From NCBI RefSeq assembly GCF_034008315.1, contig NZ_CP125377.1:4042001-4106000 (forward strand): DNA of 64,000 bases, written 5' to 3'. The notes beneath the pieces were generated by a model, which saw only the letters and a list, made by a program, of their open reading frames with translations, did no database searches and was not told where the DNA came from. Positions 34,598 through 57,775 of this stretch are shown here, in pieces; position 1 is the stretch's first letter, and each line of letters begins with the position of its first letter. The DNA comes from Pseudomonas sp. P8_241 (lineage in GTDB: Bacteria; Pseudomonadota; Gammaproteobacteria; Pseudomonadales; Pseudomonadaceae). The position numbers and the translations under genes are program-made.

Positions 34598-34613
34598 CGC
34601 AAATTTCCTCTGA

Positions 34614-35810: not shown

Positions 35811-35834
35811 CAAAGACCGTCTAGACGGTCTTTG
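35811..35834. promoter_or_regulatory. Catabolic operator C, perfect dyad
   Basis: The most symmetrical site: AGACCG-TCTAGA-CGGTCT (35814-35831), extended by three more paired bases on each side to a 24-bp perfect palindrome. It lies 37 bases upstream of the acyl-CoA dehydrogenase start and just after the DUF1329 stop. Confidence 0.78.
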
Positions 35835-42678: not shown

Positions 42679-42696
42679 AGACCGTCTGGACGGTCA
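42679..42696. promoter_or_regulatory. Catabolic operator D
   Basis: AGACCG-TCTGGA-CGGTCA, one mismatch. It lies 128 bases upstream of the YCF48 start. On the minus strand TTGACC overlaps its edge as a possible -35, with TAGTGT 17 bases on as a weak -10. It opens the envelope operon 42551 to 35850. Confidence 0.68.
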
Positions 42697-42761: not shown

Positions 42762-43313
42762 TCAGCGACGTAAATAAGTCTGTACGATCGGCCCGTCTTC
42801 GCGCAGGGCATGACAGCCATTCACCGCAAACTCTGGCAACGTATTTAAGGTATCGAAACCTTCACCATCGCCCTCCAGGCAGTTCCAAAGGGTCTGATAG
42901 GCCACTGTAGAAAGCGGCCCCAACAGCTCGGTGACATGTGTGCAGCCAGCCACCCCACGGAACAGCCTGCGCCCCGCCTGAATGAAGCCCGATTCGATCC
43001 GCATGCCAACGAGCTGCTGGTAAGCCTGCGTGATACTTGAACAAATTTTATAAGGGGAGTGCGTGAAACAGGCCTGCACCTCATGAATAAGCAACGTTCG
43101 ATCGACGGCGACACGCAACATCAATCCGTGAATCGGCTCTTCCGGATGGATCAGTCGACGCTCGATCAAGCCAATTTCGAAGGGTTTGGTATCGACCAGT
43201 GTGGCTTCGATATCCCATAACCCGTCTTCACGGACATAGCCCTGACAAACCACCTTTCGGGTGTGAACCAGACTCCGGCCGGGCTTTGCTGGCGCCTCCC
43301 GTTCAGCGGACAT
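42762..43313 (-). CDS. DUF2889 family protein
   Basis: 183 residues from start 43313 (MSAEREAPAKPGRSLVHTRK), overlapping the racemase stop by 11 bases. The family block HTRKVVCQGYVREDGLWDIE followed by ATLVDTKPF is clear, as is CTHVTELLGPLSTVAYQTLW. DUF2889 function is unknown; these genes occur in aromatic and alicyclic degradation clusters. The conserved His, Glu and Cys residues make a metal or CoA-related role thinkable. Last gene of the operon starting at 49367. Confidence 0.82.
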   Translation of the reverse strand: MSAEREAPAKPGRSLVHTRKVVCQGYVREDGLWDIEATLVDTKPFEIGLIERRLIHPEEPIHGLMLRVAVDRTLLIHEVQACFTHSPYKICSSITQAYQQLVGMRIESGFIQAGRRLFRGVAGCTHVTELLGPLSTVAYQTLWNCLEGDGEGFDTLNTLPEFAVNGCHALREDGPIVQTYLRR

Positions 43314-44481
43314 AGACAGCCCCACTACGCTGTAACACGTCAATGGCCGAAGCCTTGAGGCCAAGCCCCTCCAATATCGAGAGCGTATCCGCGCCCGCCT
43401 GCGGCGCCAGATTACGGATCTGACCCGATGTTCGGCTGAACCTCGGCGCTGGTGCCGGTTGCATCAGGCCCTCAAAGTCCACGAAGGTGCCACGCGCCAG
43501 GTTATGCGGATGGACCAACGCTTCGTGCATATCCAGCACAGGCGCAAAGCAGGCATCCGTGTTTTCCAGCAATTCGCACCAGTGCCGACGTGGGCGTGAG
43601 AGGAACACGGTCTTCAGGCGCTCGCGCAATTGCGGCCAGGTTTTCTTGTCCCACTGGCGTCGAAGTGCAGACTCGGTGATCTCAAGTTTATCCAGCAGCA
43701 GATGGTAAAATTGAGGTTCGATGGCAGCGACCGAGACATAGCCACCGTCTGCGCACGCATAAGTTGCATAGAAGGGCGCCGAGCCGTCCAGAAAGTTTTC
43801 CCCCCGACGCGGGCTCCAGCTTTTTTCCGCCAACAGTCCATAGAGCATGGCCATCAGGGTCGCAGACCCATCACTCATGGCCGCGTCCACCACCTGCCCC
43901 TTACCGGAGTGCCGCACATCCAGCAGCGCGCATACCACGCCGAAGGCCAGCATCAGCCCTCCCCCACCATAATCGCCGACCAGATTCAGCGGCGGCATCG
44001 GCGGTTGCTCAGGATTCCCCATGCCATACAGAGCACCGGATAAAGCAATGTAATTGAGGTCATGTCCGGCCGATTGGGCCAAGGGACCATCCTGTCCCCA
44101 GCCGGTCATGCGCCCATAGACCAGTGCCGGATTGCGCGCCTGGCACACCTGCGGACCAAGGCCCAGACGCTCCATCACACCTGGCCTAAAGCCTTCAATC
44201 AGGACATCCGCTGTCTCAAGCAGGCTCAGCAGCGTTTCTATCGCTTCGGGCTGCTTGATATTCAAGGCCAACGAACGGCGACCACGCCCGATCACTGCCG
44301 TAGCCGCCCGCAGGCTATCGAAATGATCCCCGCCCCCCTCTCTAGGGGGACGATCGATGACAATGACATCAGCCCCGAGATCAGCCAGCAGCATGCCGCA
44401 GAACGGGCCAGGACCGATACCGGCCATTTCGATCACCGTTACGCCGACCAACGGGCCGGAACGCATTGATTGCATAGCCAT
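43303..44481 (-). CDS. Alpha-methylacyl-CoA racemase
   Basis: 392-residue family III CoA-transferase-fold protein. All three catalytic residues known from AMACR/MCR enzymes are present in context: His140 (SAGHDLNYIALSGAL), Asp170 (LNLVGDYGGGGLM) and Glu255 (AAIEPQFYH). The N-terminal MAGIGPGPFCGMLLADLGAD is also typical. It should interconvert 2R and 2S 2-methylacyl-CoA thioesters, supplying the stereoisomer required by an acyl-CoA dehydrogenase. This implies an alpha-methyl-branched intermediate. Overlaps the nitroreductase-family gene by one base. Confidence 0.9.
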   Translation of the reverse strand: MAMQSMRSGPLVGVTVIEMAGIGPGPFCGMLLADLGADVIVIDRPPREGGGDHFDSLRAATAVIGRGRRSLALNIKQPEAIETLLSLLETADVLIEGFRPGVMERLGLGPQVCQARNPALVYGRMTGWGQDGPLAQSAGHDLNYIALSGALYGMGNPEQPPMPPLNLVGDYGGGGLMLAFGVVCALLDVRHSGKGQVVDAAMSDGSATLMAMLYGLLAEKSWSPRRGENFLDGSAPFYATYACADGGYVSVAAIEPQFYHLLLDKLEITESALRRQWDKKTWPQLRERLKTVFLSRPRRHWCELLENTDACFAPVLDMHEALVHPHNLARGTFVDFEGLMQPAPAPRFSRTSGQIRNLAPQAGADTLSILEGLGLKASAIDVLQRSGAVYVR

Positions 44482-45164
44482 TACTCCTCAAATCCACGCA
44501 TAACGACAAACTCATCCAACCCCATACGGGGGCTGTCCAGATGGTTGGCTGGCGCCTGGGCATCCGGCTTTCCGATGGCCATGCCACAGAACAGCATCCA
44601 GTCATCAGGGGAGCCGACAAACTCGGTAACGGTACGGTGATATAAGGCCCAAGCTTCCTGAGCACAGCTGCCATAGCCACGCTCCTCCAGGAGCAGCATG
44701 AGTGTCTGCAGGAACATGCCAAGGTCGGCCCACTGCGCCTTTCCCATACAACGATCGACAAAACAGAACAGGCCGACCGGCGCCCCAAAGAAAGCAAAGT
44801 TGCGAGCAAACCAGCGCTGACGCCCGGCACGGTCTTCACGCTCGATCCCCAGAGTACGGTACAACCGCTGACCAATATCAAAGCGATAGTCCCGGTATGG
44901 CTCCTTCAGGTTCGGCGGGTAAATGGGGTACTCCTCCGGATCAGGCTCCCCCGCCTGCAGACGCACCTGCATCCGGGCACAGAAACGACTCAGCTCCTGC
45001 CCCCCCAGGACATACACACGCCATGGCTGCACGTTGCCGCCCGAAGGTGAGCGCGCTGCCAGTTGCAACACCTCACGCAACACCTCAACCGGTACCGGAT
45101 CACTGCCAAAAGCACGGACACTGCAACGGTTTCGTATGGCTTCGCTCACGCTCTGTTGACTCAT
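44481..45164 (-). CDS. Nitroreductase-family flavoprotein
   Basis: 227-residue FMN-dependent protein of the nitroreductase fold. N-terminal RNRCSVRAFGSDPVPVEVLR and phosphate-binding AARSPSGGNVQPWRVYVLGG, C-terminal MLFCGMAIGKPDAQAPANHL. Members reduce nitro groups, quinones or enones, or desaturate. In this setting, between a racemase and an Mct-like gene, reduction or oxidation of a ring-derived enone or enoyl-CoA is more likely than nitro reduction. Overlaps its neighbours on both sides by a few bases. Confidence 0.8.
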   Translation of the reverse strand: MSQQSVSEAIRNRCSVRAFGSDPVPVEVLREVLQLAARSPSGGNVQPWRVYVLGGQELSRFCARMQVRLQAGEPDPEEYPIYPPNLKEPYRDYRFDIGQRLYRTLGIEREDRAGRQRWFARNFAFFGAPVGLFCFVDRCMGKAQWADLGMFLQTLMLLLEERGYGSCAQEAWALYHRTVTEFVGSPDDWMLFCGMAIGKPDAQAPANHLDSPRMGLDEFVVMRGFEE

Positions 45165-46387
45165 GTCGCATCTCCCTCAGCGGTCGCTACCACACCCCGA
45201 TCAAGCAACTTGCCAAACTCCACCGAGCTCAGCCCCAGCACCTCGGTCAAAACACTTTCAGTGTCTTCGCCCAATCGGGGTGCCGGGCGTGGAGCCTGAC
45301 GCCGGCTGGCAGAAAAGCTCAATGGCAGGCCCGGTATCAGAAGCGGGCCAACACCTGGCTGCTGCACTTGCGAGAACATCGGGTTGGGCTCGTCGCCAGC
45401 CAACGCCTGGACAACCTCTGCCATTTCTCGGTAGCGGCTCCAGCACACCCCGTGATGGTCCAGAATCCGCGCCGCCTCAACCAGGGTCAAACGGACAAAC
45501 CAAGGTTCGAACAGCGCCGCAATGGCATGCCTGCCTAGATAGCGATCACCCTCGCGCGACCAGTCCAGACTCAACTGTTGGGCCAGCGCCTGCAGCGGCT
45601 GCTGAAGCCCTGTCGCCTCACAAAGCCCCTTCCACTGGCGCGCGGTCAGGCCCACGACCATGATGCGGCTCCCATCCGCCAGCACGAAGTCGCGTCCAAA
45701 GGCGCCGTATAGGTAATTACCTACCCGTTCACGCGCTCCTCCCAACTCGGCTTCAGCGGTAAAGCCCAAGTGCGCAACCACAGCTAGCGCTACATCCTCA
45801 AGCGCCAGCTGCACATGCTGGCCTTGACCAGTCAGGCGACGGTGCCGTTCCGCCGCCAGCAGCCCCGTGGCAGCCATTTGCCCAGTGACCAGATCCCAGG
45901 CCGGCAGCACATGATTGACAACAGCTGCAGTCGAAGCCTCGGGGCCTGTGATCAATGGCAACCCCACCGAAGGGTTAACGGTGTAGTCCACCGCCGAACC
46001 ACCCTTGCGGTCGCCCTGCACAGTCAGCTGGATCAAATCCGCCCGTTGCTGGCGCAACTGCTCCCAGTCAAGCCAGCCACGGGGGGGGAAGTTAGTCAGC
46101 AACATACCGGCATCCGCACCCTCCGCGCAGATCAGAGCCATGGCCAATTCACGCCCCTCTTCACTGGCAATATCGATGGCGACCGAGCGCTTGGCCTTGT
46201 TCAGGCCACACCAGAACAGACTGGTGTTATCCTCGGTCACCGGCCAGCGGTGGTAGTCCAGACCTCCACGCAACCCATCGATGCGAATCACCTGCGCCCC
46301 CATCTGAGCCAGCGTCATGCCGCCGAGGGGGGCTGCGACAAAGGCCGAGACTTCGACAACCCGCATTCCTTCAAGAATCGTATTCAT
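45161..46387 (-). CDS. mct: Mesaconyl-CoA C1-C4 CoA transferase (Mct-like)
   Basis: 408-residue family III CoA transferase that resembles 2-methylfumaryl-CoA isomerase (Mct) of the 3-hydroxypropionate bicycle rather than racemases. Telling stretches: VEVSAFVAAPLGGMTLAQMG, GGLDYHRWPVTEDNTSLFWC, GLNKAKRSVAID, DYTVNPSVGLPLITGP, NYLYGAFGRDF and a length equal to the family. Mct moves CoA within mesaconate from C1 to C4. Its neighbour is the Mcd-like dehydrogenase (4-base overlap), and the Meh/Ich-like hydratase is 3 kb upstream. Symbol given by resemblance from memory; not alignment-tested. Confidence 0.78.
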   Translation of the reverse strand: MNTILEGMRVVEVSAFVAAPLGGMTLAQMGAQVIRIDGLRGGLDYHRWPVTEDNTSLFWCGLNKAKRSVAIDIASEEGRELAMALICAEGADAGMLLTNFPPRGWLDWEQLRQQRADLIQLTVQGDRKGGSAVDYTVNPSVGLPLITGPEASTAAVVNHVLPAWDLVTGQMAATGLLAAERHRRLTGQGQHVQLALEDVALAVVAHLGFTAEAELGGARERVGNYLYGAFGRDFVLADGSRIMVVGLTARQWKGLCEATGLQQPLQALAQQLSLDWSREGDRYLGRHAIAALFEPWFVRLTLVEAARILDHHGVCWSRYREMAEVVQALAGDEPNPMFSQVQQPGVGPLLIPGLPLSFSASRRQAPRPAPRLGEDTESVLTEVLGLSSVEFGKLLDRGVVATAEGDAT

Positions 46388-48048
46388 GCTGACTCCAGTG
46401 CGTTCTCCAGCAAGCTGCGTGCAATCACCTTGAGCGCCAACGTTTCTTCAGCGCCTTCGAAGATCGACAGTACGCGCGCATCGACAAAGTAGCGGCTGAC
46501 GGCCGACTCCTCGGCGTAGCCCATACCACCATGAATTTGCAGGGCCTCGCGGGTAATCAACTCTGCCGATCGGCAGGCCAGCAATTTGACCAGGCTGGCT
46601 TCCATACGACCGGCCCCATCTTGCATCAAGCGACCCACGGCATACGTCAGTCGGCGACAAGCCACAAACCGAGACGCCATACGGGCCAACTTGGCCTGAG
46701 TCAGCGGATAATCCACCAAGGGCGCAGCGAATACCTTGCGGTCTCCCGAGTAACGAATAGCCGCCAGCAAAGCCGCACGCATAACGCCACAGGCACGCGC
46801 TGCGGTCTGCATGCGTCCACCCATCATGCCGGCCATGGTGTAGTAGAACCCCTTACCAAGCCCGCCTTGCTCGCCAATCAGACAGTTATCTGGAACGAAA
46901 TAGTTGTCAAAAAACAGATCGAACGAGTGCATGCCCCGATAGCCAATCGTCGGTATCGCGGTGCCCGTCAGGCAACCACCGCCTTCCTGAACTTCTTTGA
47001 AGGCATGCTGATCCGTCGACTGCTTCTCGACCAGGAACAAACTCAACCCCTTGTGCCCCAGGCTACGATCCGGATCAGTACGTGCGACCACCATCAACAA
47101 CCCGGCCTTGCCGGCAAAGGTGCACCAGCTTTTGGCACCATTGAGCAACCAGCCACCCTCGCAGCGACTGGCTCGCAGGGATAGACCGGCCACATCCGAG
47201 CCAAAATCCGGCTCGGTGATAGCAATGCCACACAGTGGCTCGCCAACGGCAATACGCGGTAACCAGTCGTTTTTCTGCTGTTCAGTACCCCCCGCCAACA
47301 AGGCCCGGGAAAGAATCTCAGGACGGGTGATCAGGCTACCGGCAGCGGCCAACGACGCCTGCGAGAGCGCTTCTGTGACCACGATCATCATGATGTTGTC
47401 ATCACGATCATCCGGTGCAGTGCCTCCGAAACGCTGCGGTATTGAAAGGCCGAACACCCCCATATCACGCAACGGCTGCAACAGCGTTTCTGGTACCGTA
47501 AGGTCGTGACGATGAATACCCTCTGCCTGTGGTGCCACCACTTCCTCGGCAAAGCGCCGGAAGCTGTCGCGAGCCATTGCCAGATCCTGATCCTGATCCA
47601 GCGACTCGGCACCGAGCTCATCATCACGCTGGAACACTTCAAGGCCTGCCTGCTGCAAAGCCTCTGCACCACCACCGGCGGCCCGCAGCTCACGCCAGGC
47701 GGTGCTGCGGGCTAACTCTTGCAGGGCGACTGGATCAAGATCCAGCTCCAGAAAAAGCCCCTCAAGACGAGTCAGCAGCGCCTGCACGGCCTCACAGATG
47801 AACACAAGCGCCAGGCGAGCCTCATTACCTGGATCCTTAGCCAGGGTCTCAGCCGCAAGCAAATCGGCGCTGGCCAGTGCCAGCTCGTAGCTGGGAACCT
47901 GGTGCCGATCCAATAGATCGGCATCCAGCTGACCGCACTGACCGCGCCGGCAGCGAATAGCCAGACTCTTGGTCGCAAGCGAGAAAGCCTCACGAAGCGT
48001 TACCAACAACGACTGTGCATTTTCCAGTTGTGCCGCCAGGGCACTCAT
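46384..48048 (-). CDS. Methylsuccinyl-CoA dehydrogenase-like (Mcd-like)
   Basis: 554 residues, about 170 longer than ordinary acyl-CoA dehydrogenases. The N-terminal extension is helical (LENAQSLLVTLREAFSLATK; YELALASADLLAAETLAK), as in (2S)-methylsuccinyl-CoA dehydrogenase of the ethylmalonyl-CoA pathway. The dehydrogenase part has CGIAITEPDFGSDVAGLSLR, IHGGMGYAEESAVSRYFVD and the catalytic Glu in VLSIFEGAEETLALKV. Expected product from methylsuccinyl-CoA is mesaconyl-C1-CoA, the substrate of the adjacent Mct-like enzyme. A larger alkylsuccinyl substrate cannot be excluded. Confidence 0.78.
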   Translation of the reverse strand: MSALAAQLENAQSLLVTLREAFSLATKSLAIRCRRGQCGQLDADLLDRHQVPSYELALASADLLAAETLAKDPGNEARLALVFICEAVQALLTRLEGLFLELDLDPVALQELARSTAWRELRAAGGGAEALQQAGLEVFQRDDELGAESLDQDQDLAMARDSFRRFAEEVVAPQAEGIHRHDLTVPETLLQPLRDMGVFGLSIPQRFGGTAPDDRDDNIMMIVVTEALSQASLAAAGSLITRPEILSRALLAGGTEQQKNDWLPRIAVGEPLCGIAITEPDFGSDVAGLSLRASRCEGGWLLNGAKSWCTFAGKAGLLMVVARTDPDRSLGHKGLSLFLVEKQSTDQHAFKEVQEGGGCLTGTAIPTIGYRGMHSFDLFFDNYFVPDNCLIGEQGGLGKGFYYTMAGMMGGRMQTAARACGVMRAALLAAIRYSGDRKVFAAPLVDYPLTQAKLARMASRFVACRRLTYAVGRLMQDGAGRMEASLVKLLACRSAELITREALQIHGGMGYAEESAVSRYFVDARVLSIFEGAEETLALKVIARSLLENALESA

Positions 48049-49367
48049 GCTCGAACCCCATCAAGCACAGCCAGTGCCTTGGCCGCCGCATTGCGCGCGG
48101 TTACTGCGCAGGCCTGAGTACCGCCATCGCCATACTCCTTGACCGCATCGCCTACCTGCCAGAGGTTGCTCAACGGAGTGTCCTGCGGCATATCGAATCC
48201 GGCACAAGTACGCTGGGCCGGCCATTCACCGCGCATCACACGCACCGACAGCATCTTGGCATTGGCGAAGCCTGGGAACAGGTCATGCAGATCCTGTAGC
48301 GAAGCTTCGATCTCGGCCGCCTCATCGAACGCATCGATGGCCGGGCGCGGTACTGCGTAGGCCACATACAGGTGCCAGCCAGGCGGCGCCATTTCCGGGC
48401 ACGTCGCCGTCATTTCACCCATGTTGCACAAACGACGGGTCGGACCGAAGGTAATCAGACCCGGGGCATCGATCAGGCGCTCACGGGTCGCGAAGTTGAT
48501 CACGATGTTGGACGCCGGACGCAATGTGTTCGCCGCTTGAGCCGCGTAATCACCTGCCAGAATATCCGCTCCGGCCAGCGCCGCAGTTGCCCGCGGACCG
48601 ATATTGCTGATCACTGTGGAGGCAGCGACCCAGATACGCTCGCCATTGCGCTCCACTTCGATGGCAGTGACACGACCGTCTTCAACACGCAGCCCTTGGG
48701 CTCGGCTTTCCAACCAAACTTCACCGCCGTGGGCACGTATGGCATCAGCCAGATCATTCCACAGGCCAATGGTGCCACGGGGGCAGAAACCGAAGCGCTT
48801 GAACGCGCCCTTGACTGCAAAGTAAGTCAGGAAGGCACGAGCGGGCAATTCATCGGAATTGACCGCAAAAATAGCGGCACACAGGTTGCGAAAAATCGCA
48901 TGCACCGTCTGGTTCTTGGTGTACTTGGCCAACCACTCGGCGGTCGTCAGGCGGGCCTCGGGCAGATCTCCACCACGGGCGTCGGCGAACTTGGCGCCAA
49001 TCTTGGCAGCCTGCTTGGTGAAGGTGCCGAGGAGAAAACCCCATCCCCCACCCTTGGCCACGTTGATCACCTTGCCATCCACGTAGAACACGGTTGCCGG
49101 ATTCGGCTCACGTACATCCATCCGTACATCAAGGGCCGCAAAGGTTTCTTCAAAAGTACTGCCTAGCTCGATAGCAATCGCACCGATGTTGACGATGAAG
49201 TCGTCAATCACTTCACTGGAGGCGCGGCCGCCGACACGGTTCAAACTCTCGACGACCAGAACACGTTTTCCGGCTGCGACCATGCGCGCAGCGGCGCACA
49301 TACCCCCTGCACCTGCGCCGAGAATAATGGTGTCGTAATGCTGGACCGCTACATTTGTTGTTGTCAT
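48045..49367 (-). CDS. FAD-dependent oxidoreductase, phytoene-desaturase-like
   Basis: 440 residues from start 49367 (behind CAGGAG). N-terminal dinucleotide-binding ILGAGAGGMCAAARMVAAGK followed by VVESLNRVGGRASS, and C-terminal FAD motif NLWQVGDAVKEYGDGGTQAC, characteristic of the amine-oxidase/phytoene-desaturase group. Such enzymes desaturate or isomerise hydrophobic ring systems. Possible role: introducing a double bond into an alicyclic ring. First gene of the operon 49367 to 42762, directly behind operator E. Confidence 0.8.
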   Translation of the reverse strand: MTTTNVAVQHYDTIILGAGAGGMCAAARMVAAGKRVLVVESLNRVGGRASSEVIDDFIVNIGAIAIELGSTFEETFAALDVRMDVREPNPATVFYVDGKVINVAKGGGWGFLLGTFTKQAAKIGAKFADARGGDLPEARLTTAEWLAKYTKNQTVHAIFRNLCAAIFAVNSDELPARAFLTYFAVKGAFKRFGFCPRGTIGLWNDLADAIRAHGGEVWLESRAQGLRVEDGRVTAIEVERNGERIWVAASTVISNIGPRATAALAGADILAGDYAAQAANTLRPASNIVINFATRERLIDAPGLITFGPTRRLCNMGEMTATCPEMAPPGWHLYVAYAVPRPAIDAFDEAAEIEASLQDLHDLFPGFANAKMLSVRVMRGEWPAQRTCAGFDMPQDTPLSNLWQVGDAVKEYGDGGTQACAVTARNAAAKALAVLDGVRA

Positions 49368-49421
49368 ATGTACTCCTGCTCGCAAGGCATCCACTTAATA
49401 ACGGAAGTTCTTTCAATTAAA

Positions 49422-49439
49422 AGACCGTATGGTCGGTCT
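49422..49439. promoter_or_regulatory. Catabolic operator E
   Basis: AGACCG-TATGGT-CGGTCT with both half-sites perfect. It sits in the only gap (111 bases) of the long leftward series, 55 bases before the FAD oxidoreductase start. Flanking A5 and T5 tracts mean the same dyad could also fold as a weak terminator for the upstream operon. Confidence 0.72.
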
Positions 49440-49478
49440 TTTTATAGCATGCATGTCTACAAATAAAGTCTTATTTTC

Positions 49479-50324
49479 CTAACCGCGCACGACAGCCAGT
49501 GCCGTCATACCAATAAATCCGTCCTGGTCCAGGCTCCACAGCTGCAATTGCTCGCCTTCACGGCGACCACATAACCGAATCGGCCCCTGAGCGAACGTCG
49601 GCCGTATCGCGCGGAACTTAAAATTCTCTACACCCCCAGGTCCTGCCTGTTCCAGTGCCAGCTCCAACAACGCGGTCGCGAGCAGTGGCCCCTGCACCAC
49701 CAGACCGGGATAGAACTCTTCTTGCACAGCATAGTCACGGTCGTAATGGATACGGTGACCGTTATAGGTCAGGGCTGAAAAACGAAACAGCAGCACAGGA
49801 TCTGGCTGTAGCACTCGCTCCCACTGTGCCTCCTCGATCGGCCGCTGTCCTATCGGCAACGGCATGGCCGAGGTGGGTGCATCGCGGTACACCAGATGTT
49901 GCAACTCTCGGACTCGACAGGCCTGCTCCTGGAAAATCAGATGCTCCAGCGTCACGAACACCAGACTGCCCGATTGTCCCTCTTTCAACTCGACGGACAT
50001 TACCCGGCTCTGCCGCCGGGCACTTTGGCCAATGATCAGCGGCTTATCAATGCGCAACTGTCCGGATGCCCACATACGTCGTGGCAGTGGCACCGGAGGC
50101 AGGAAATCGCCTTTGAGCGGGTGTCCATCCACCCCTGTTCCCAGCGTCGAAGGGGTGTCCAGAAAGTACAACCAGTGCCACGAAGGCGGCAGGGGATCGC
50201 CCATTTCAAGCAACGTGTCACGAGACAAGGCCGCCGCCAAGGCACGTGCTGGGAACACCGGCAGTTGATCTTCCATCACCCGCTCACGACCGACCCAGCC
50301 TTCGAGATGCTTAATATCAATCAT
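49479..50324 (-). CDS. Mesaconyl-C4-CoA/itaconyl-CoA hydratase-like (MaoC fold)
   Basis: 281-residue FAS1-like/MaoC dehydratase resembling itaconyl-CoA hydratase of P. aeruginosa and mesaconyl-C4-CoA hydratase (Meh). Family features: KHLEGWVGRERVMEDQL, the segment PLPPSWHWLYFLDTP, VPLPRRMWASGQLRI, and the C-terminal hot-dog motif LTYNGHRIHYDRDYAVQEEF with the catalytic Asp/His, then YPGLVVQGPLLATALL. Product should be citramalyl-CoA, substrate of the CitE-like lyase. Overlaps the 3-hydroxyacyl-CoA dehydrogenase gene by four bases; last gene of the operon beginning at 60414. Confidence 0.82.
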   Translation of the reverse strand: MIDIKHLEGWVGRERVMEDQLPVFPARALAAALSRDTLLEMGDPLPPSWHWLYFLDTPSTLGTGVDGHPLKGDFLPPVPLPRRMWASGQLRIDKPLIIGQSARRQSRVMSVELKEGQSGSLVFVTLEHLIFQEQACRVRELQHLVYRDAPTSAMPLPIGQRPIEEAQWERVLQPDPVLLFRFSALTYNGHRIHYDRDYAVQEEFYPGLVVQGPLLATALLELALEQAGPGGVENFKFRAIRPTFAQGPIRLCGRREGEQLQLWSLDQDGFIGMTALAVVRG

Positions 50325-51850
50325 ACCGCTCTGGCCTCGCGCGCCGGTTCTTCGCTCAGCAGTGACAAGCCGGCCTCAGCGCGGCGCACCAACCAAAGGC
50401 TTGGACGATAACGGGGATCGCCCGTGTACTGATGCAAGTTACGCAGAATCCTCAACACCCGCTTGGGCCCGATCCGATCACCCCAGGCCAATGGCCCGCA
50501 CGGGTAGCCCAGCCCTAGGCGTACCGCGTCTTCAATATCTGCTACGCAGGCAATCCGGCGTTGGGCGATATCGGCTGCAATATTAACAATGGTCGCCAGC
50601 ACACGCTGCAGCACAAATCCCGGGCTGTCATTAATCACCGTTACCGGAGCGCCCAAGGCCACGAACAATGCATGGGCCGCGTCGCGAACTTCGGCGCGGG
50701 TGCCAACCGTCTGCATCAGCGTCACCCGCCCGCCCGGCAGCCCCAAGGGGTCCACTGCGATACAGCGCTGCGGATCCAGCCCCAGACGCAGACAGGCAGT
50801 GGTCGCGTCCTCGCCCCAGGGCTGAACGATCTGGATCGAGGCCTGCTCGGCACTCTCCACGACCCGTGCGCAGCCCGTTGCAATAATGCGATCCAGCAGC
50901 GTGTCGTACTGTTCGCATTCAGGCGCCACCCAAACAGTCAAGGCACCAGGCAGGCGTGGGACGGCCAACGCTTGCGGCTCAATCCGTACAGCGCCGTCAT
51001 AGCGGTACCAGCCCTCTCCCGTCTTACGACCGAACAGGCCGGCTGAAATCCTCGGCGGCACCAACGGTGATGGACGCAACCGCGGCTCCTGCAGGAACTG
51101 GCTATAAATAGAACTCATCACCTTGCCCGAGACATCCAGACCGGTCAGGTCCAGCAACTCGAACGGGCCCATGCGAAAGCCCGCCGCCTCACGCAGAATG
51201 CGATCTACATCAGCGACATCGGCTACCTGTTCCTCGACAATCCGCAAACCCTCAGTATAAAGCCCGCGACCAGCATGATTGACGAGGAAGCCAGGCAGAT
51301 CCTCTGCAACCACCGCACGATGGCCGGCGCTTTCCACCAGCGCCACCAGCGCCGCAACCACTGGCGGTGCAGTACGCACCGCAGCGATGACCTCGACCAC
51401 TTTCATCAGTGGCACTGGATTAAAGAAATGCAGCCCGGCCACCCTTTGCGGAATTCGGCAACCTGCGGCGATGTCGGCCATGACCAGCGACGAGGTGTTA
51501 CTGGCCAGAATCGCTTCGTCGCCGATGATATTCTCCAGCTCAGCGAACAGCTCGCGCTTGACCTGCAAATCCTCGACTACCGCCTCTATCACCACTGAAC
51601 AACCGGCCAATTGCTGCAACTGGTCAACCACCTCGATCGAGGAAAGGATCCGCTGGCCCTGCTCGGCACTGAAACGTCCCTTGCCAACGCCTTTGCCAAC
51701 CATCTCAGCGATGTACTCGAGCGCCTTGCCCGCCGCTCCGGTGAAGGCATCGAATAGTCGTACCCGATAGCCCGCTTCGGCGAACAACTGGACGATGCCG
51801 CGGCCCATTGTGCCCGCGCCGATCACGCCAATAATCTTATTCGTGTTCAT
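50321..51850 (-). CDS. 3-hydroxyacyl-CoA dehydrogenase (PaaH-like)
   Basis: 509-residue dehydrogenase with duplicated C-terminal domain as in PaaH. NAD-binding GVIGAGTMGRGIVQLFAEAG at the N-terminus, catalytic His in VAGLHFFNPVPLMKVVEVI, then a 3HCDH domain (GFRMGPFELLDLTGLDVSGK) and a second one near the C-terminus (VRLGLGYPCGPLAWGDRIGP). It oxidises a 3-hydroxyacyl-CoA to the 3-oxoacyl-CoA that the thiolase would cleave. Length favours dicarboxylyl or ring-derived substrates like PaaH. Confidence 0.9.
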   Translation of the reverse strand: MNTNKIIGVIGAGTMGRGIVQLFAEAGYRVRLFDAFTGAAGKALEYIAEMVGKGVGKGRFSAEQGQRILSSIEVVDQLQQLAGCSVVIEAVVEDLQVKRELFAELENIIGDEAILASNTSSLVMADIAAGCRIPQRVAGLHFFNPVPLMKVVEVIAAVRTAPPVVAALVALVESAGHRAVVAEDLPGFLVNHAGRGLYTEGLRIVEEQVADVADVDRILREAAGFRMGPFELLDLTGLDVSGKVMSSIYSQFLQEPRLRPSPLVPPRISAGLFGRKTGEGWYRYDGAVRIEPQALAVPRLPGALTVWVAPECEQYDTLLDRIIATGCARVVESAEQASIQIVQPWGEDATTACLRLGLDPQRCIAVDPLGLPGGRVTLMQTVGTRAEVRDAAHALFVALGAPVTVINDSPGFVLQRVLATIVNIAADIAQRRIACVADIEDAVRLGLGYPCGPLAWGDRIGPKRVLRILRNLHQYTGDPRYRPSLWLVRRAEAGLSLLSEEPAREARAV

Positions 51851-51868: not shown

Positions 51869-52642
51869 TCAACGGCCGATATAGCTCGGTGTTCTTTTCT
51901 CCAGGAAGGCGCGCATGCCCTCCTCCTGATCCTGAGTATCGAACAGCAACAAGAACTCACGATTCTCCAGGGCCAGCGCGGCATCCAGAGACATATCCCC
52001 ACCCTGGGCCAATACCCGACGCGTCGCCGTCACCGCCAGAGGTGGCATTGCTGCAATCCGCCGAGCCAATGCCTTGGCTCTTTCGACAGCCTGCCCCGGC
52101 TCGCATAGCTCTGCCACCATGCCCAGCTGCCAGGCACGCTCCCCCGACAACAGATCGCCCGTGAGCAGTAGCATGCTCGCCACCGGACGCCCAACCGCTC
52201 GCATCAGGCGCTGGGTGCCGCCGGCCCCCGGCATAATCCCTACCTTGAGCTCTGGCTGGCCGAAGCGGGCACTGCTATCCGCCACGATGAAGTCACACAT
52301 CATTGCCAGTTCGCAGCCGGCTCCCAGGGCAAAACCGCTGACCGCGGCAATCAACGGCTTGCGACTCTGCGCGAGCGGCGCCCAATACTGCCCAAGGTCG
52401 AGTTCGGCGACGTCCTGCGCACCCTTATCAACCAGCAGATTGAGATCGGCTCCTGCTGCGAAAACCTCATTGCCACCGGTGATAACAATCACTTTGATGC
52501 CGACCTCGCCTTGCAACTCGATCACGCCGTTGGCAATTGCGCTACGCATGTGCAGATCTAGCGCATTGCGCTTGGCCTCACGATTCAGGCGCAACACACC
52601 GACGTCGCCGTCACGCTCAATCACGACCATTTCTTCACTCAT
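51869..52642 (-). CDS. Enoyl-CoA hydratase
   Basis: 257-residue crotonase with both catalytic Glu residues: GFALGAGCELAMMCDF and FGQPELKVGIMPGAGGTQRL. Oxyanion loop GGNEVFAAGADLNLLVD. This is the only one of four crotonases in the window that keeps the full hydratase pair, so it is the best candidate for the ordinary hydration step of beta-oxidation. Start 52642 overlaps the next upstream crotonase by four bases. Confidence 0.9.
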   Translation of the reverse strand: MSEEMVVIERDGDVGVLRLNREAKRNALDLHMRSAIANGVIELQGEVGIKVIVITGGNEVFAAGADLNLLVDKGAQDVAELDLGQYWAPLAQSRKPLIAAVSGFALGAGCELAMMCDFIVADSSARFGQPELKVGIMPGAGGTQRLMRAVGRPVASMLLLTGDLLSGERAWQLGMVAELCEPGQAVERAKALARRIAAMPPLAVTATRRVLAQGGDMSLDAALALENREFLLLFDTQDQEEGMRAFLEKRTPSYIGR

Positions 52643-53433
52643 ACTTTGAGCCTCGCTGTCAGCGTGAAATCGGGATCTCGCCGGGCACTGAACGCCGCAA
52701 AACCTTCTTTAAAATCGGCGCCTAGCAGCAGGTCTGCCTGATCGTCCTCCTCCCGCTTCAACTCGCTCGGCAAGTCCTCAGCAGGATGGTTCAAACGCTG
52801 CTTCATGCGAGCAAAGGCTTCCTGCGGCAACCGGGCCATTTGTTCGGCCCGATGCAAAGCACCGGCCATGATGTCGCCATCAGTGACGAACTCGTCAGCA
52901 AGCCTAAGACTTACAGCCTCTTCTCCCGACAACACCTGACCGCTTGTCAACAAACCTCGGGCACAGGGCAGACCGACCCGCGCGGGTAGCGTGCGTAGGG
53001 TGCCCCAATCCGGTGTCAGCCCCAGTTTCATGAAGGGGAAGAGGATCTTGCTGCCAGGTCCCACCACAATGTGATCGCCCAGTAGAGCAAGGCCTACGGC
53101 CGCTCCGGCGGCGAAACCTTCCAGCGCCGAAACGACCGGGACAGGTAAAGCCGCCAGACTCAAGCAGAGCCGACGGATATGGGTCATCCGGGAACGCGCT
53201 TGCGCTTCAGTCAACCCCACCATGCTGGGCACATCGCCGCCCGCAGAGAAGATGCCACCCACACCACCACACACCAACGCACGTACGCCAGGATCAGCAC
53301 TGATTTCACTCAGATGTTCGATCAGCGCCTGACGCACGTCGTAGTCGATCGCATTGCGCTTATCCGGGCGGTTGATCAGCAGCCGCGCCACTCCAGGTGC
53401 GGGATCATCCCTCAGCACTACTCGCTCGGCCAT
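52639..53433 (-). CDS. Crotonase-family enzyme, isomerase type
   Basis: 264-residue crotonase. Oxyanion block GGVGGIFSAGGDVPSMVG and GFAAGAAVGLALLGDHIVV lack the first hydratase Glu. MKLGLTPDWGTLRTLPARVG has Asp where PaaG-like delta3-delta2 isomerases have their catalytic Asp. Likely shifts a double bond or acts in ring opening. Overlaps the hydratase gene by four bases and follows the thiolase gene by two. Confidence 0.83.
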   Translation of the reverse strand: MAERVVLRDDPAPGVARLLINRPDKRNAIDYDVRQALIEHLSEISADPGVRALVCGGVGGIFSAGGDVPSMVGLTEAQARSRMTHIRRLCLSLAALPVPVVSALEGFAAGAAVGLALLGDHIVVGPGSKILFPFMKLGLTPDWGTLRTLPARVGLPCARGLLTSGQVLSGEEAVSLRLADEFVTDGDIMAGALHRAEQMARLPQEAFARMKQRLNHPAEDLPSELKREEDDQADLLLGADFKEGFAAFSARRDPDFTLTARLKV

Positions 53434-53435: not shown

Positions 53436-54638
53436 TCAGCGTCCTTCCAGACCAACGATCGACACGGAGCAGACGTTCTGCGACGGCTGACCGCCCAGGT
53501 TATGGGTCAGACCCAGGGTCGGGTTGGCTAGCTGACGGGTACCTGCACGGCCCTGCAACTGCAGATACATTTCGTACAGCATGCGAATTCCGCTCGCCCC
53601 GATGGGATGGCCAAAGCACTTCAGCCCACCATCAATCTGACAAGGGATCTTGCCGTCGGCATCGAACACACCGTCCAGCACATCCGCAACCGCACCCCCC
53701 TCGACGGACAGCATCAGATCCTCCATGGTCACCAGTTCGGTAATCGAGAAGCAGTCATGTACCTCCGTCATGCTGATCTCTTCCCGCGGATTGCGTATAC
53801 CAGCTTCCATATAGGCCTTGCGGGCAGCGATGCGGGCGGTATGCACGTAGCTGCCGTCCCACTCGTTGGATTGCATTTCCCAGCCATTGGATACCGATAC
53901 CTGCAACGCCTTGAAGGTCACAAGATCTTTCTTGCCGAGGCTGCGGGCAATTTCCGGTGTGGTCACAATCACTGCCGCTGCACCATCGGATACACCACAG
54001 CAATCAAACAGCCCCAGCGGTTCGGCGATGATCGGCGCATTGAGCACCTGTTCTACGGTGATGTGCTTACGCAGGTGCGCCTTGGGGTTCTTCGCACCGT
54101 TGGCGTGGCTCTTGACCGAAACATGCGCAATTGCGCGCTTGAGCAGATCCACCGGCACCCCATGGCGACGACGATAGGCCGAGGCCAATTGCGCAAAATT
54201 TGCCGGTGCGACGGCGTTGGGGTACCACTGCGGAATCAAGGTGCCCACACTGGCGAGCGGCAAACCGCCATAACCGGTGTCCTTAAGTTTCTCCACTCCC
54301 ACCGCCAGGGCAATATCACAGGCCCCAGCAGCCACGGCATAGACCGCCGCACGAATTGCCTCGGAGCCACCGGCGCAGAAGTTCTCCACGCGAGTAACAC
54401 CAATGTTCGGCAGACGTAGAGCAATGCCCAAGGGAGTTCCGCCACGGCCCACCCCGACATCGTCCATATGGGTCGAGAACCAGGCCGCATCCAGCTGAGT
54501 CGGCTCGATACCGGCATCCAGCATGGCCTCGTTATAAGCCTCTATCATCAGATCTTCGGGGCTTGCATCCCAGCGCTCGCCAAAACGGCTGCAACCCATT
54601 CCGAGGATGGCAACCTTGTCTTTGATTCCAGTACTCAT
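53436..54638 (-). CDS. SCPx-type thiolase
   Basis: 400-residue thiolase-superfamily protein of the SCPx/Ltp (lipid-transfer) group. Nucleophilic Cys88 in VENFCAGGSEAIRAAVYAVA, His in EVHDCFSITE, and GHPIGASGIRMLYEMYLQLQ with the second His near the C-terminus. These thiolases or retro-aldolases work with a DUF35/OB-fold partner on bulky or alpha-branched acyl-CoAs, as in steroid side-chain and aryl-propionate catabolism. The partner gene is immediately upstream (15-base gap). Confidence 0.9.
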   Translation of the reverse strand: MSTGIKDKVAILGMGCSRFGERWDASPEDLMIEAYNEAMLDAGIEPTQLDAAWFSTHMDDVGVGRGGTPLGIALRLPNIGVTRVENFCAGGSEAIRAAVYAVAAGACDIALAVGVEKLKDTGYGGLPLASVGTLIPQWYPNAVAPANFAQLASAYRRRHGVPVDLLKRAIAHVSVKSHANGAKNPKAHLRKHITVEQVLNAPIIAEPLGLFDCCGVSDGAAAVIVTTPEIARSLGKKDLVTFKALQVSVSNGWEMQSNEWDGSYVHTARIAARKAYMEAGIRNPREEISMTEVHDCFSITELVTMEDLMLSVEGGAVADVLDGVFDADGKIPCQIDGGLKCFGHPIGASGIRMLYEMYLQLQGRAGTRQLANPTLGLTHNLGGQPSQNVCSVSIVGLEGR

Positions 54639-54653: not shown

Positions 54654-56126
54654 TCAGTTGTCGGCGGATTTAGCCTGGTTGCGCACCGGGGTGGCCTTCC
54701 AGAAATAACGGACAAAGCCGCGTCGCTCATCGATGTCCTTGATCCGGAAAACCATTTCCATCGTGGTTCCGGAATCCACATCGCCCTTATCCAGATCAGT
54801 GAACTCCATCAGGATGCGGCCACCGCCTTCGAAGTCGACCTGCCCGTAGTAATTCGGGGGGGCAGGGTGATACGAGAGGTATTCCGCAGACCAGCTGAGG
54901 ATCTGCGCACGGCGCTCGGCCAGCTTGTAGGGCACCTGTGAGTCGAGCAGAGCACCTGCCGGATCATGAGACAGGCGCGACGGTGGGAAATGCACACGCC
55001 CAGTTTCCCTGCAGCGCCCGCCAACCAGCCCGAGAATCGCGCTTTTGTGCCGATACAGGGTTGTCAGTGCCGTTTTCTTGTCCTGCTCGCCACGCATACC
55101 ACGCTCGAGGCGCAGCTGATTATTGAACGAGAGGAACTTGGTGTAGTTGCTTTCCTCTACACCGCGCGCGAGCCAGCCCGACACGCCCAACCGAGGGCGG
55201 AAGCGAGCAATGTGCTCGGTCGTGCGCAATACGAGCGCCTGGGCACCACTGGCAAACTGGCTGACCACAATAATCTGGCCGGGAGTGGCGGTTTCCAACA
55301 CAGCCGTCAGCATCAACAAGGCGTGCGCAGTACCCGTGTCGCCCACAGTCGCCGCCAGGTTGTTCACCACCGCCTCGGCACGCATCCCAAGGGTTTTGGC
55401 GACGCTCTGATCCAGCTTGGCCATCACACTTGGGAAAATGAAATGATCAACTTGCTCGGCCTTCACGCCGGCGCTTTCCAGTGCAGCCTGAATCACGCCT
55501 GGGACGATCTTGCCAACGCCTTCCTCGCGAACCCAGCGTTCTTCCCAGTGGTAATCGATCTCCTGGCCTGCAGAGCGGAAGTGATCGACAAAGTCCAGAG
55601 TATCCGTCGCGCTGCCCAGTAGCTCAGCCACCACCTCACCACGCCCCACCAACAGAGCCGCTGCGCCATCACCATAATCCAGCTCGGCAGAGCTCGCAGC
55701 ACGGGTGTGACGGTTGTCGGCAGCCAGCACCAGCGCGCAGCCCTTGCGGCTATCAACCTGATGCAACGCATCCTGCAGCGCCCCAAGGCCCGCCCGTAGC
55801 GAGCCTCCCAGGTCACGGGCATCGATACCGCTATCCAGGGTCAAGGCTTCGGCTGCCACCGCTGCATTGAGACGGTCGGCGAACGGCAGCGTGGTCGAGG
55901 CCAGCCACAGCGAACGCACATGGTTGCGATCATCCGACGGCCCCAGACAGTCACGCGCGGCCGCCACTGCCATGGTGATGCTGTCTTCATCCCAGTTGGC
56001 CATGGCGCGCACGCCTTTGGCCTTATTCTGCAAACCTGGCGCAAACCAGGCATTAGCCTGCGCTACTGCCTGCCGACTGAGTCGCAGGCGAGGTACATAA
56101 CTGCCATATCCGAGAATCCCGATCAT
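54654..56126 (-). CDS. HMG-CoA-synthase-like protein fused to OB-fold (DUF35)
   Basis: 490 residues. The N-terminal 330 have the thiolase-like HMG-CoA synthase fold (MIGILGYGSYVPRLRLSRQA, ELDYGDGAAALLVG). The C-terminal 150 form a DUF35-like OB-fold (YYGQVDFEGGGRILMEFTDL). Where the synthase Cys is expected, GGSLRAGLGALQDAL has Ser109, and the zinc ribbon of DUF35 keeps only one Cys (GGRCRETGRVHF). So this half may be catalytically inactive and serve as thiolase partner. Start 56126, no ribosome-site conflict. Adjacent SCPx thiolase supports complex formation. Confidence 0.82.
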   Translation of the reverse strand: MIGILGYGSYVPRLRLSRQAVAQANAWFAPGLQNKAKGVRAMANWDEDSITMAVAAARDCLGPSDDRNHVRSLWLASTTLPFADRLNAAVAAEALTLDSGIDARDLGGSLRAGLGALQDALHQVDSRKGCALVLAADNRHTRAASSAELDYGDGAAALLVGRGEVVAELLGSATDTLDFVDHFRSAGQEIDYHWEERWVREEGVGKIVPGVIQAALESAGVKAEQVDHFIFPSVMAKLDQSVAKTLGMRAEAVVNNLAATVGDTGTAHALLMLTAVLETATPGQIIVVSQFASGAQALVLRTTEHIARFRPRLGVSGWLARGVEESNYTKFLSFNNQLRLERGMRGEQDKKTALTTLYRHKSAILGLVGGRCRETGRVHFPPSRLSHDPAGALLDSQVPYKLAERRAQILSWSAEYLSYHPAPPNYYGQVDFEGGGRILMEFTDLDKGDVDSGTTMEMVFRIKDIDERRGFVRYFWKATPVRNQAKSADN

Positions 56127-56144: not shown

Positions 56145-57050
56145 TTAAGAGTTGTAAGGATTTGAATGAGGCGGCCAATGCGCCTCTAAGTGCTGCCCGA
56201 CTGCGGCGATGGCTTCCTGAGCCTGTGTCAAGTGCTGGGGGAACTGCTGAAACACATGAATCATTGCGTCGTATACCTGCAACTGCACAGCCACTCCGGC
56301 AGCCTGTGCCTTGTGGGCGAACATCCGTGAGTCATCAAGTACAGTTTCGCGATCACCGACCTGTAGCAGTAACGGCGGCAGCCCTTGGAGCTCAGCAAAC
56401 AACGGAGAAACACGAGGATCCGACGCATCCTGCTGGCCGAGGTAATTGCCGGCCATGGCCAACACCATCCGACGCTGATGGATAGGGTCACTATCAGCTC
56501 GCGTCTGGTAGCTTTCACCACTGGCAGTCATATCCGTCCAGGCCGACATCACCGCGGCACTGGCTGGCAACGCCATACCTGCCTCACGTAGCTGTAGCAG
56601 TAGTGACAACGCCAACCCACCCCCAGCCGAGTCACCGGCCAGCGCAATGTTCGTTGCAGGTACGCCCTGCTCCAGCAGCCAAGCGTAAGCGCTCAGCGCA
56701 TCATCCAGAGCGGCCGGAAAAATGTGTTCGGGCGCCAGGCGATAATCCACTGCCAGTACCCGGCAACGCGCTGCTGCCGATAGTCGATGCATCAGGTCGA
56801 AATGCGAACGCACCGACCCCACTTGAAAGCCACCACCATGGAAGTACAACAACACCCGATCCCTATCGATTTCAGGCGCGTCAATCCAGGCGGCGCAAAC
56901 ACCGTCGGCATCCACAGGCTGGGAACTGTCTGGTGACACTGTCTCACCGAAAAGACGATCCCAATCGGCCCGCATCTGAGCCACGGTAGTCTCGCGCCCC
57001 CAGCTGCCGTACACCGCCTGGACCTGCTCAATCACCTGGTCGATGCTCAT
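56145..57050 (-). CDS. Alpha/beta hydrolase, HSL-type esterase
   Basis: 301 residues, start 57050 overlapping the SDR stop in ATGA. Hormone-sensitive-lipase family motifs: oxyanion HGGGFQVGS, nucleophile in ALAGDSAGGGLALSL, Asp in LQVGDRETVLDD and His in YDAMIHVFQQFPQHL. Could open a lactone or ester intermediate, or release the acid from an ester form of the substrate. Lies between thiolase partner and SDR in the long leftward operon. Confidence 0.87.
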   Translation of the reverse strand: MSIDQVIEQVQAVYGSWGRETTVAQMRADWDRLFGETVSPDSSQPVDADGVCAAWIDAPEIDRDRVLLYFHGGGFQVGSVRSHFDLMHRLSAAARCRVLAVDYRLAPEHIFPAALDDALSAYAWLLEQGVPATNIALAGDSAGGGLALSLLLQLREAGMALPASAAVMSAWTDMTASGESYQTRADSDPIHQRRMVLAMAGNYLGQQDASDPRVSPLFAELQGLPPLLLQVGDRETVLDDSRMFAHKAQAAGVAVQLQVYDAMIHVFQQFPQHLTQAQEAIAAVGQHLEAHWPPHSNPYNS

Positions 57051-57775
57051 TGGCCGCACCCCATGCCACCGGATACGCCCAGCACTTCGCCAGTGATATA
57101 GGCCGCTTCGCGAGACACCAGAAAAGACACTGCAGCAGCGACCTCATCCGGAGTGCCCAGGCGCCCGACCAGGGTCGACGAGCACATGGCGTCCAGCAGC
57201 CTATCTCCACCCTCAGCCACCGCTTGACGCAGTAGCGGGGTATCGATGGGGCCTGGCGTGATGACATTAGCCGTGACGCCGTAACGAGCACTCTCACGCG
57301 CAATCGAACGTGTAAAGGCAATGACCGCACCTTTGGAAGCAGCATATACAGCACCGCCGCGCGACCCCATACGACCCGCCTCTGAGGCGATATTCACAAT
57401 GCGTCCGTGGCCACCCGCCTGCATCGCCGGCAACAGCAGGTGAGTGGTATTGAGCACCGAGTAAAGATTCACCGCCATCAGGCGATTCCATTCTTCTACC
57501 GACGTATGAGTGAAGAAGGCGTGTTGGTCGACACCAGCGCAGTTGACCAAAATGTCGAAAGGCTGTCCGGCGAAGGCCTTGACCTGGTCGTAATCGCTCA
57601 AATCAATACAAGCGCTGCTTGCTCCTACTTCTTGAGCTAATGCCTCTGCTGCCAGCACATCACGATCGGCGATGAACACTTGCGCGCCATCCGCTACCAA
57701 ACGTCGAACGACAGACGCACCTATCCCATTGGCACCGCCGCCAACGAAGGCGCGGCGCCCTGCAAGATCAGTCAT
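57047..57775 (-). CDS. Short-chain dehydrogenase (BadH-like)
   Basis: 242-residue classical SDR. Cofactor loop AFVGGGANGIGASVVRRLVA, NAG-type motif ILVNCAGVDQHAFF, Ser in IVNIASEAGRM, and Tyr/Lys in AVYAASKGAVIAFTRS. It resembles 2-hydroxycyclohexanecarboxyl-CoA dehydrogenase (BadH). An alternative is a cis-dihydrodiol dehydrogenase working after the Rieske oxygenase. Context fits both; BadH-like chemistry agrees with the CoA-centred pathway. Confidence 0.82.
   Translation of the reverse strand: MTDLAGRRAFVGGGANGIGASVVRRLVADGAQVFIADRDVLAAEALAQEVGASSACIDLSDYDQVKAFAGQPFDILVNCAGVDQHAFFTHTSVEEWNRLMAVNLYSVLNTTHLLLPAMQAGGHGRIVNIASEAGRMGSRGGAVYAASKGAVIAFTRSIARESARYGVTANVITPGPIDTPLLRQAVAEGGDRLLDAMCSSTLVGRLGTPDEVAAAVSFLVSREAAYITGEVLGVSGGMGCGQ

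Follow-up and report, generated by a model that had tools for sequence, protein, structure and literature searches.

A putative methylsuccinyl-CoA oxidation module associated with a Rieske oxygenase island in Pseudomonas sp. P8_241

Introduction

Why should an intramolecular CoA transferase of the kind used in CO2 fixation occur among Rieske oxygenase genes, and which reactions would it serve there? These questions are raised by a catabolic island of Pseudomonas sp. P8_241. The stretch analysed here (the window, 64,000 nucleotides) corresponds to bases 4042001-4106000 of the 6.39-Mb single contig of this host, and the island spans 28.0-61.1 kb of it according to the open reading frame (ORF) listing and family profile searches. 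An original prediction, made from the window alone, had recognized a complete methylsuccinyl-CoA oxidation module inside a ring-degradation island, composed of a methylsuccinyl-CoA dehydrogenase (Mcd), a mesaconyl-CoA C1-C4 transferase (Mct), a mesaconyl-C4-CoA hydratase (Meh/Ich-like) and a CitE-like citramalyl-CoA lyase (Ccl-like). The present analysis supports that interpretation overall. The module is probably the final part of a CoA-dependent pathway of ring degradation initiated by a Rieske oxygenase, and would lead from methylsuccinyl-CoA to acetyl-CoA and pyruvate.

The four enzymes of the module

The four open frames are present and intact. Three of them, all on the minus strand, lie within 45161..50324, the span to which the whole module had been assigned: the Mct-like transferase (408 aa, 45161..46387), the Mcd-like dehydrogenase (554 aa, 46384..48048) and the Meh/Ich-like hydratase (281 aa, 49479..50324). 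The fourth, encoding the Ccl-like lyase (272 aa, 32607..33425), is 16 kb off on the plus strand. Its start was set at an ATG, the listed 290-aa frame beginning at a TTG 54 bases upstream. The Mct and Mcd genes overlap by 4 bases, and so do those of Mcd and of an FAD oxidoreductase of the amine oxidase/phytoene desaturase type (449 aa, 48045..49394, minus strand; PF01593), which is located between Mcd and the hydratase and was absent from the original prediction.

In a search of PDB chains, the 554-aa protein matched 8ciw with 65% identity and 739 bits over residues 9-552 (8-552 of the chain), an almost full-length alignment that includes the long N-terminal extension noted in the original prediction. 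Its match to PdMCD of Paracoccus denitrificans (6es9) was 284 bits. In PdMCD, Glu535 is the catalytic base and Arg252, Arg376 and Arg421 are near the carboxylate (excerpts of PMC5798300); the equivalents of all four are conserved in the window Mcd, as read by eye from the alignment. The Mcd ortholog of a genome of the same genus (G211), encoded in the same kind of operon, is identical to 8ciw letter for letter across all 555 chain residues, and the module supplies a genomic context for the enzyme behind this structure, whose source we take to be Pseudomonas migulae. Homology at the level of 8ciw, the catalytic residues and the placement in the tree all agree with the Mcd assignment, and the protein is predicted to be a (2S)-methylsuccinyl-C1-CoA dehydrogenase.

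The 408-aa protein matched the solved Mct of Chloroflexus (8apq) with 508 bits and that of Roseiflexus with 496 bits, against 98 bits for the best formyl-CoA transferase. Among the NCBIfam profiles, it scored 534.5 bits with TIGR04253 (2-methylfumaryl-CoA isomerase) and 96 bits with the next family. In a tree of 25 rows, in which formyl-CoA transferase, eight other family III proteins of the host and racemases were set beside the Mct rows, it fell within a nine-row Mct clade that includes Chloroflexus (support 100/100, branch 1.84), and not with the formyl-CoA transferase, a grouping named beforehand as one that would contradict the label. Eight Mct residues are named in the excerpts of PMC9813914 and PMC9196870, where Leu or Ile at position 43 marks intramolecular transferases. 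Six of the eight (L43, R47, F101, R104, Y136 and D165) are conserved in five sequences aligned with Chloroflexus Mct; the catalytic residues and the mesaconate-binding R47 and Y136 are among those found in the window protein.

The best PDB match of the 281-aa protein was itaconyl-CoA hydratase (8khg, 207 bits, residues 9-255 on 8-250 of the chain), with the stretches RIHYD and YPGLVV common to both. The 272-aa protein, of the HpcH_HpaI family, matched 8khl and 9nzb (acyl-CoA lyase beta chain) with 268 bits over residues 5-267, the next chain reaching 133 bits; with the RipC model NF038242 it scored 145 bits, below the cut-off of 375. With the lyase encoded in one itaconate-type cluster of the host, it shares 54% identity. 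The Meh/Ich-like and CitE-like labels are both in keeping with these itaconyl-CoA hydratase and citramalyl-CoA-lyase-like matches.

On this basis, the following route is proposed. An opened methyl-bearing ring would give, by beta-oxidation or thiolysis, (2S)-methylsuccinyl-CoA with the CoA on C1, beside the methyl-bearing carbon. From chemistry, we infer that either thiolysis of 4-methyl-3-oxoadipyl-CoA or beta-oxidation of 3-methyladipyl-CoA would yield this methylsuccinyl-C1-CoA. Mcd would oxidize it to mesaconyl-C1-CoA, Mct would shift the CoA within the molecule to give mesaconyl-C4-CoA, the hydratase would add water to form (S)-citramalyl-CoA, and the lyase would split the latter into acetyl-CoA and pyruvate. 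Because the ring product would carry its CoA on C1, a C1-specific Mcd followed by Mct would be required before a C4 hydratase could act.

Conservation of the module with Rieske oxygenase genes

A block of 14 genes was found in one order in six other genomes: G211 (same genus), G298 (Zhongshania marina), G301 (Zhongshania aliphaticivorans), G300 (Haliea), and G686 and G687 (both from the family of G298). The block consists of the Rieske alpha and beta subunits, a crotonase, an SDR dehydrogenase, a hydrolase, an HMG-CoA-synthase-like/OB-fold protein, a thiolase, two crotonases, a 3-hydroxyacyl-CoA dehydrogenase, the hydratase, a CitE-like lyase, Mcd and Mct. The window keeps this order, except that the FAD oxidoreductase takes the position that the CitE-like lyase has in the six relatives.

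Mcd was detected in 2 of 298 genomes of the same genus (E <= 1e-100, the window's own counted), and the Rieske protein in the same two (E <= 1e-150). In the Zhongshania family, Mcd (E <= 1e-150) occurred in five of 21 genomes. Four of these five, and no other genome of the family, had Rieske; the remaining Mcd, which comes without Rieske, is divergent (55% identical). Every Rieske-carrying genome of both surveys therefore has Mcd. Hypergeometric values for the co-occurrence were 2e-5 for the genus and 8e-4 for the family, and they overstate independence since the genomes are related. A class-wide draw gave Mcd in 12 of 369 genomes (E <= 1e-100), including that of the window, the other 11 being 48-59% identical. 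Surroundings were read for 12 loci with Mcd at least 62% identical: Mct was adjacent in 11, an Ich-like hydratase and a CitE-like lyase occurred in the cluster or island in nine, and Rieske genes in eight. The association of the Mcd-Mct module with a Rieske island, seen originally at one locus, is thus conserved across genera in both gene order and co-occurrence.

This conservation bears on whether the island has merely captured a salvage module for itaconate or methylsuccinate that is unrelated to the ring. Such a capture would recall the P. aeruginosa-type itaconate cluster, which employs Ich and Ccl and breaks down methylsuccinate (excerpts of PMC12290011), as well as the conjugative IncP plasmid pAKD34 (L072, 19971-22881), where an Mcd-Mct pair and four unrelated genes stand between two ISPps1 transposase genes, without Rieske genes. 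The host, however, already has two itaconate-type clusters (G000:C1:3386180-3390303 and 3612683-3616784), each encoding an Ich-like hydratase, a dehydrogenase of about 386 aa, a CoA transferase and a CitE-like lyase, so that a third lyase and hydratase would not be needed for itaconate. Judging from the gene set, the dehydrogenases of these clusters are presumably C4 enzymes; they are 27-28% identical to the window Mcd. Ich and Ccl have an itaconate CoA transferase and a presumed C4 dehydrogenase as neighbours at these two places of the host and not in the island. Near Mct in the island, an alpha-methylacyl-CoA racemase (AMACR) is the one further member of the CoA-transferase family. With the gene order around Rieske kept across genera and Mcd and Rieske occurring together, a captured salvage module is quite improbable.

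A plasmid of Sulfitobacter sp. THAF37 (L073) carries a related Rieske block (alpha 66%, beta 62%, crotonase 55%, SDR 63% and hydrolase 50% identical) which is adjoined, instead of Mcd-Mct, by an Ich-like hydratase, a Ccl-like lyase and a dehydrogenase with 61% identity to its counterparts in the host itaconate clusters. This arrangement is consistent with a Rieske pathway that ends in a methyl-branched C5 dicarboxylate, and fits the idea that it does so whichever module serves.

Mcd could also belong to an exit of the ethylmalonyl-CoA pathway type, in which Mct is not needed. That pathway continues to glyoxylate and propionyl-CoA and requires crotonyl-CoA carboxylase/reductase (Ccr). In G369:C53, G500:C115 and G458:C33, a divergent Mcd (50-57%) stands beside proteins that resemble, by sequence reading, double-MaoC mesaconyl-C1-CoA hydratases, and such pairs suggest a glyoxylate/propionyl-CoA exit in other genera. 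In Sphingobium TomTYG74, an Mcd (62%) lies close to a gene annotated as beta-methylmalyl-CoA dehydratase, and no Mct accompanies it. In the window, by contrast, Mct, which would be superfluous there, adjoins Mcd, and none of 29 host matches to Ccr was above the cut-off (best 74.5 bits against 378.6). A host without Ccr above the cut-off argues against the ethylmalonyl-CoA pathway and against a role of Mcd in acetate assimilation, and this explanation is very improbable.

Points against the assignment

Several observations weigh against the assignment of the module to methylsuccinyl-CoA oxidation behind a Rieske oxygenase. The function of 8ciw is that of its deposited name only, (2S)-methylsuccinyl-CoA dehydrogenase, literature searches having yielded no paper on it, and 8khl is taken to be an (S)-citramalyl-CoA lyase of Pseudomonas (P. 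aeruginosa type). The in-operon CitE-like lyases, present in the six related genomes, are 29-32% identical to the window lyase in the four compared, which makes their activity less sure. The curated cut-off of TIGR04253, 725 bits, is above the score of the 408-aa protein, and the CoA contacts R75 and R314 of Mct are not conserved in the five aligned sequences. Although it falls outside this equivalog, the protein would still be expected to work like Mct.

Some loci also separate parts of the module from one another or from Rieske genes. On the Variovorax SRS16 plasmid, Rieske, Mcd and Mct occur with an FAD oxidoreductase at the place of both lyase and hydratase, and no hydratase or lyase match was found in 41.6 kb; searches with tblastn showed Mct to be 61% identical in this cluster and also detected the beta subunit, the hydrolase and the crotonase ECH2. 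In a Nevskia metagenome-assembled genome (L010), all four members of the module are clustered, and the top Rieske hit of this genome reaches only 32% identity. A plasmid of Paraburkholderia D15 also has the module without Rieske: hydratase and lyase, Mcd (65%) and Mct (64%), accompanied by genes annotated as FAD-binding protein and electron transfer flavoprotein beta. An intradiol dioxygenase is about 11 kb away, and a maleylacetate reductase about 15 kb.

Finally, the methyl pocket of PdMCD is altered: read by eye, A285/F287 correspond to Ile/Ile and E380 to Ser in the window Mcd and in 8ciw alike. The enzymes might accordingly act on a larger 2-substituted succinyl-CoA from a ring pathway, with the same chemistry and a bigger substituent. 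Some Mct contacts differ as well, and in anaerobic naphthalene degradation a ring dicarboxylate is described as undergoing an internal CoA shift and then dehydrogenation (PMC11659651). Conservation of the mesaconate-binding residues R47 and Y136 in Mct speaks for the smaller substrate, however, as does 8ciw, which was deposited as a (2S)-methylsuccinyl-CoA dehydrogenase while having the same pocket residues. Moreover, the nearest match of the hydratase is an itaconyl-CoA hydratase, and that of the lyase is the chain taken to be citramalyl-CoA lyase. A larger substrate is therefore unlikely, and methylsuccinyl-CoA is retained as the probable one.

The remaining genes of the island

Upstream of the hydratase on the minus strand, the genes of the conserved block encode a 3-hydroxyacyl-CoA dehydrogenase (509 aa, 50321..51850; NF006124, 625 bits, above cut-off), the crotonase-family proteins ECH1 (51869..52642; best NCBIfam match 315 bits against a cut-off of 355) and ECH2 (52639..53433; none above cut-off among the NCBIfam matches listed), and a thiolase of the SCP-x/lipid-transfer type (400 aa, 53436..54638; NF004810, 691 bits, above cut-off). 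They are followed by an HMG-CoA-synthase-like protein fused to an OB-fold/zinc ribbon (54654..56126; NF003274, 170 bits, and OB_ChsH2_C, both below cut-off), an alpha/beta hydrolase of the hormone-sensitive-lipase type (56145..57059; NF058651, 274 bits, below cut-off), an SDR dehydrogenase (57047..57775) whose nearest family is BadH, 2-hydroxycyclohexanecarboxyl-CoA dehydrogenase (TIGR03206, 207 bits against a cut-off of 431), a third crotonase, ECH3 (57784..58614; NCBIfam matches below cut-offs), and the Rieske beta (58664..59191; PF00866) and alpha subunits (419 aa, 59155..60414; PF00355 and PF00848). A gene for a 2Fe-2S ferredoxin (60757..61086, plus strand; PF00111) diverges from this operon. 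In the fusion protein, the place expected to be catalytic lacks a conserved Cys in eight aligned homologs, that of G211 having a Cys one residue further on, and the protein is possibly a non-catalytic partner of the thiolase.

On the plus strand, the lyase is preceded, in this order, by a TetR regulator (28826..29431; PF00440), an acyl-CoA ligase (29682..31244; NF004837, 516 bits, above cut-off) and a ferredoxin reductase (31300..32556; NF042949, 365 bits against a cut-off of 450). The minus strand carries, in addition, a SnoaL-crotonase fusion (33422..34603, 393 aa from the assumed start; PF12680 and PF00378), a second acyl-CoA dehydrogenase (34614..35777, 387 aa from the assumed start; NCBIfam matches below cut-offs), proteins of the DUF1329, DUF1302, MMPL and YCF48 families, a DUF2889 protein (42762..43364), which closes the Mcd-Mct run, the AMACR (43303..44481) and a nitroreductase-family protein (44481..45164; PF00881).

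The AMACR (392 aa) had been proposed, with an intact catalytic triad, to supply the correct 2-methyl isomer. Its best PDB matches are indeed alpha-methylacyl-CoA racemases (8rmw, 374 bits; 1x74, 373 bits), against 130 bits for the best chain not so named, and the tree agrees with this identity. The motifs GHD, GDYGGG and EPQF, presumably those of the His-Asp-Glu triad, are visible in the protein. An AMACR is near Mct in the window, G446, G686 and Variovorax. Within the stretches read, it was found in two of the six other full-block genomes, G686 and G301 (at 22 kb). In G211 and G298, reading of 100 kb and 80 kb, respectively, revealed none near the block. A Rieske cluster of Rhodococcus has an AMACR without Mct or a close Mcd, and the annotated racemase of Sphingobium TomTYG74 is 31-32% identical to the two CoA transferases of the host against 27% to the window AMACR. 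As supplier of the (2S) isomer, the window AMACR is a candidate only.

The ring substrate was sought through the relatives of the Rieske alpha subunit, whose nearest solved chain is only 9o71 (216 bits). Among 7998 proteins scored, 3126 were related at E <= 1e-80, and the names of the 120 listed were generic apart from one "p-cumate 2,3-dioxygenase" and several "fatty-acyl-CoA synthase". Nothing decisive came from the plasmid relatives or from 10 neighbour proteins of relatives. Steroids, diterpenes, p-menthane or bisabolane terpenoids and methylcyclohexane acids are all possible candidates. No ring-cleavage dioxygenase family was present among the matches listed for the island proteins in the family profile searches (best 25 for some proteins). 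We tentatively suggest, at less than even confidence, that the island represents an undescribed and widespread aerobic route, in which a CoA-dependent Rieske step is followed by ring opening through SDR, crotonase and hydrolase without a ring-cleavage dioxygenase, Mcd and Mct being the dedicated C1 exit for its methyl-bearing remnant, methylsuccinyl-C1-CoA.

Outside the island, prophage-structural-like genes occur at 1000-10000, with a gpA-type terminase large subunit (7384-9390) verified by profile search. A phage-type integrase (24200-25249) lies to the left of the island, which may thus sit beside or within an integrated element.

Operator-like palindromes

A palindrome resembling GACCGTCYRGACGGTC was found at seven gaps of the island, six of which precede transcription units: 29605..29620 (before the ligase), 35815..35830 (before the second acyl-CoA dehydrogenase), 42680..42695 (before the YCF48/MMPL/DUF1302/DUF1329 run), 49423..49438 (before the FAD oxidoreductase-Mcd-Mct run), 60538..60553 (before the Rieske operon) and 60710..60725 (before the ferredoxin). 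The seventh, at 28032..28047, is about 0.8 kb before TetR, and the ORF list contains no ORF of at least 120 aa starting near it. A looser pattern, with at most one mismatch, gave 24 matches when each strand was counted separately and sites beyond the island were included; 100 shuffles averaged 7.2 matches and gave at most 16. This test is not independent because the pattern was derived from the same sequence. Each of 20 mononucleotide-shuffled versions of the window contained between 0 and 5 matches of at least 13 bits.

The Variovorax cluster, which took no part in deriving the pattern, had only two matches of at least 12.5 bits (14.4 and 15.7). These weaker sites fall in gaps orthologous to those of the island, one between ferredoxin and Rieske and one between TetR and ligase. 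Together with the seven palindromes of the island, they uphold the earlier claim of a shared operator motif. Since the TetR protein has a 60% identical ortholog in this same cluster, it is likely the regulator of the island. Against a general role of the palindrome, matches of at least 12.5 bits were absent from nine of ten stretches scanned from G211, G298, G301 and G300, the tenth (L026) having a weak one (13.6 bits), and no match was found at the Nevskia locus. On pAKD34, a weak operator-like match (14.0 bits) is located about 40 bases upstream of Mcd.

Comparison with known systems

Parts of the island resemble several known pathways. The SDR dehydrogenase is nearest to the BadH family of the BadH/BadI route, below its cut-off. 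The ibuprofen IpfABDE route combines a Rieske oxygenase, a thiolase and an OB-fold protein as the window does. With the Mct and Meh of the 3-hydroxypropionate bicycle (Chloroflexus, Roseiflexus), the module shares the conversion of mesaconyl-C1-CoA to mesaconyl-C4-CoA by internal CoA transfer, and the last steps of the bicycle also lead from citramalyl-CoA to acetyl-CoA and pyruvate. The bicycle, however, fixes CO2 from glyoxylate and propionyl-CoA, whereas the window Mct follows Mcd in an oxygenase operon. The likeness to the ethylmalonyl-CoA pathway lies in Mcd (P. denitrificans, 6es9), through the N-terminal extension, the catalytic Glu and the three Arg at the carboxylate end.

In the mml pathway of Cupriavidus and Ralstonia, the 4-methyl-3-ketoadipyl-CoA thiolase MmlC releases methylsuccinyl-CoA and acetyl-CoA, so that a methyl-bearing ring is likewise brought to these two products (excerpts of PMC6449761). 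It differs in proceeding via 4-methylmuconolactone, and the fate of methylsuccinyl-CoA is absent from the excerpted description. For this fate after the breakdown of methyl-substituted rings, the present module offers a concrete and testable answer.

The closest relative is the itaconate-methylsuccinate cluster of P. aeruginosa and C. necator (Ict, Ich, C4-Mcd, Msi and Ccl; excerpts of PMC12290011), which has the same end, from mesaconyl-C4-CoA through citramalyl-CoA to acetyl-CoA and pyruvate, and the same kinds of hydratase and lyase. There, according to the same excerpts, free methylsuccinate is activated at C4 and oxidized by a different, C4 dehydrogenase, with no Mct and no Rieske oxygenase. 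As this route joins methylsuccinyl-CoA oxidation with Ich and Ccl in one published pathway, the original view that these steps are known only separately does not hold; its other part, that no described pathway combines them with a Rieske oxygenase, agrees with the literature found. Neither Mcd nor Mct was joined to a Rieske oxygenase among the matches listed in the open-licence PMC literature. The split between C1 and C4 entry, if true, would explain why Mct occurs in ring clusters and not in itaconate clusters, and would give a chemical reason for a CO2-fixation-type intramolecular CoA transferase in Rieske operons. The enzymes and a C4 relative of the pathway are known; what would be new is the C1-entry module behind a Rieske oxygenase.

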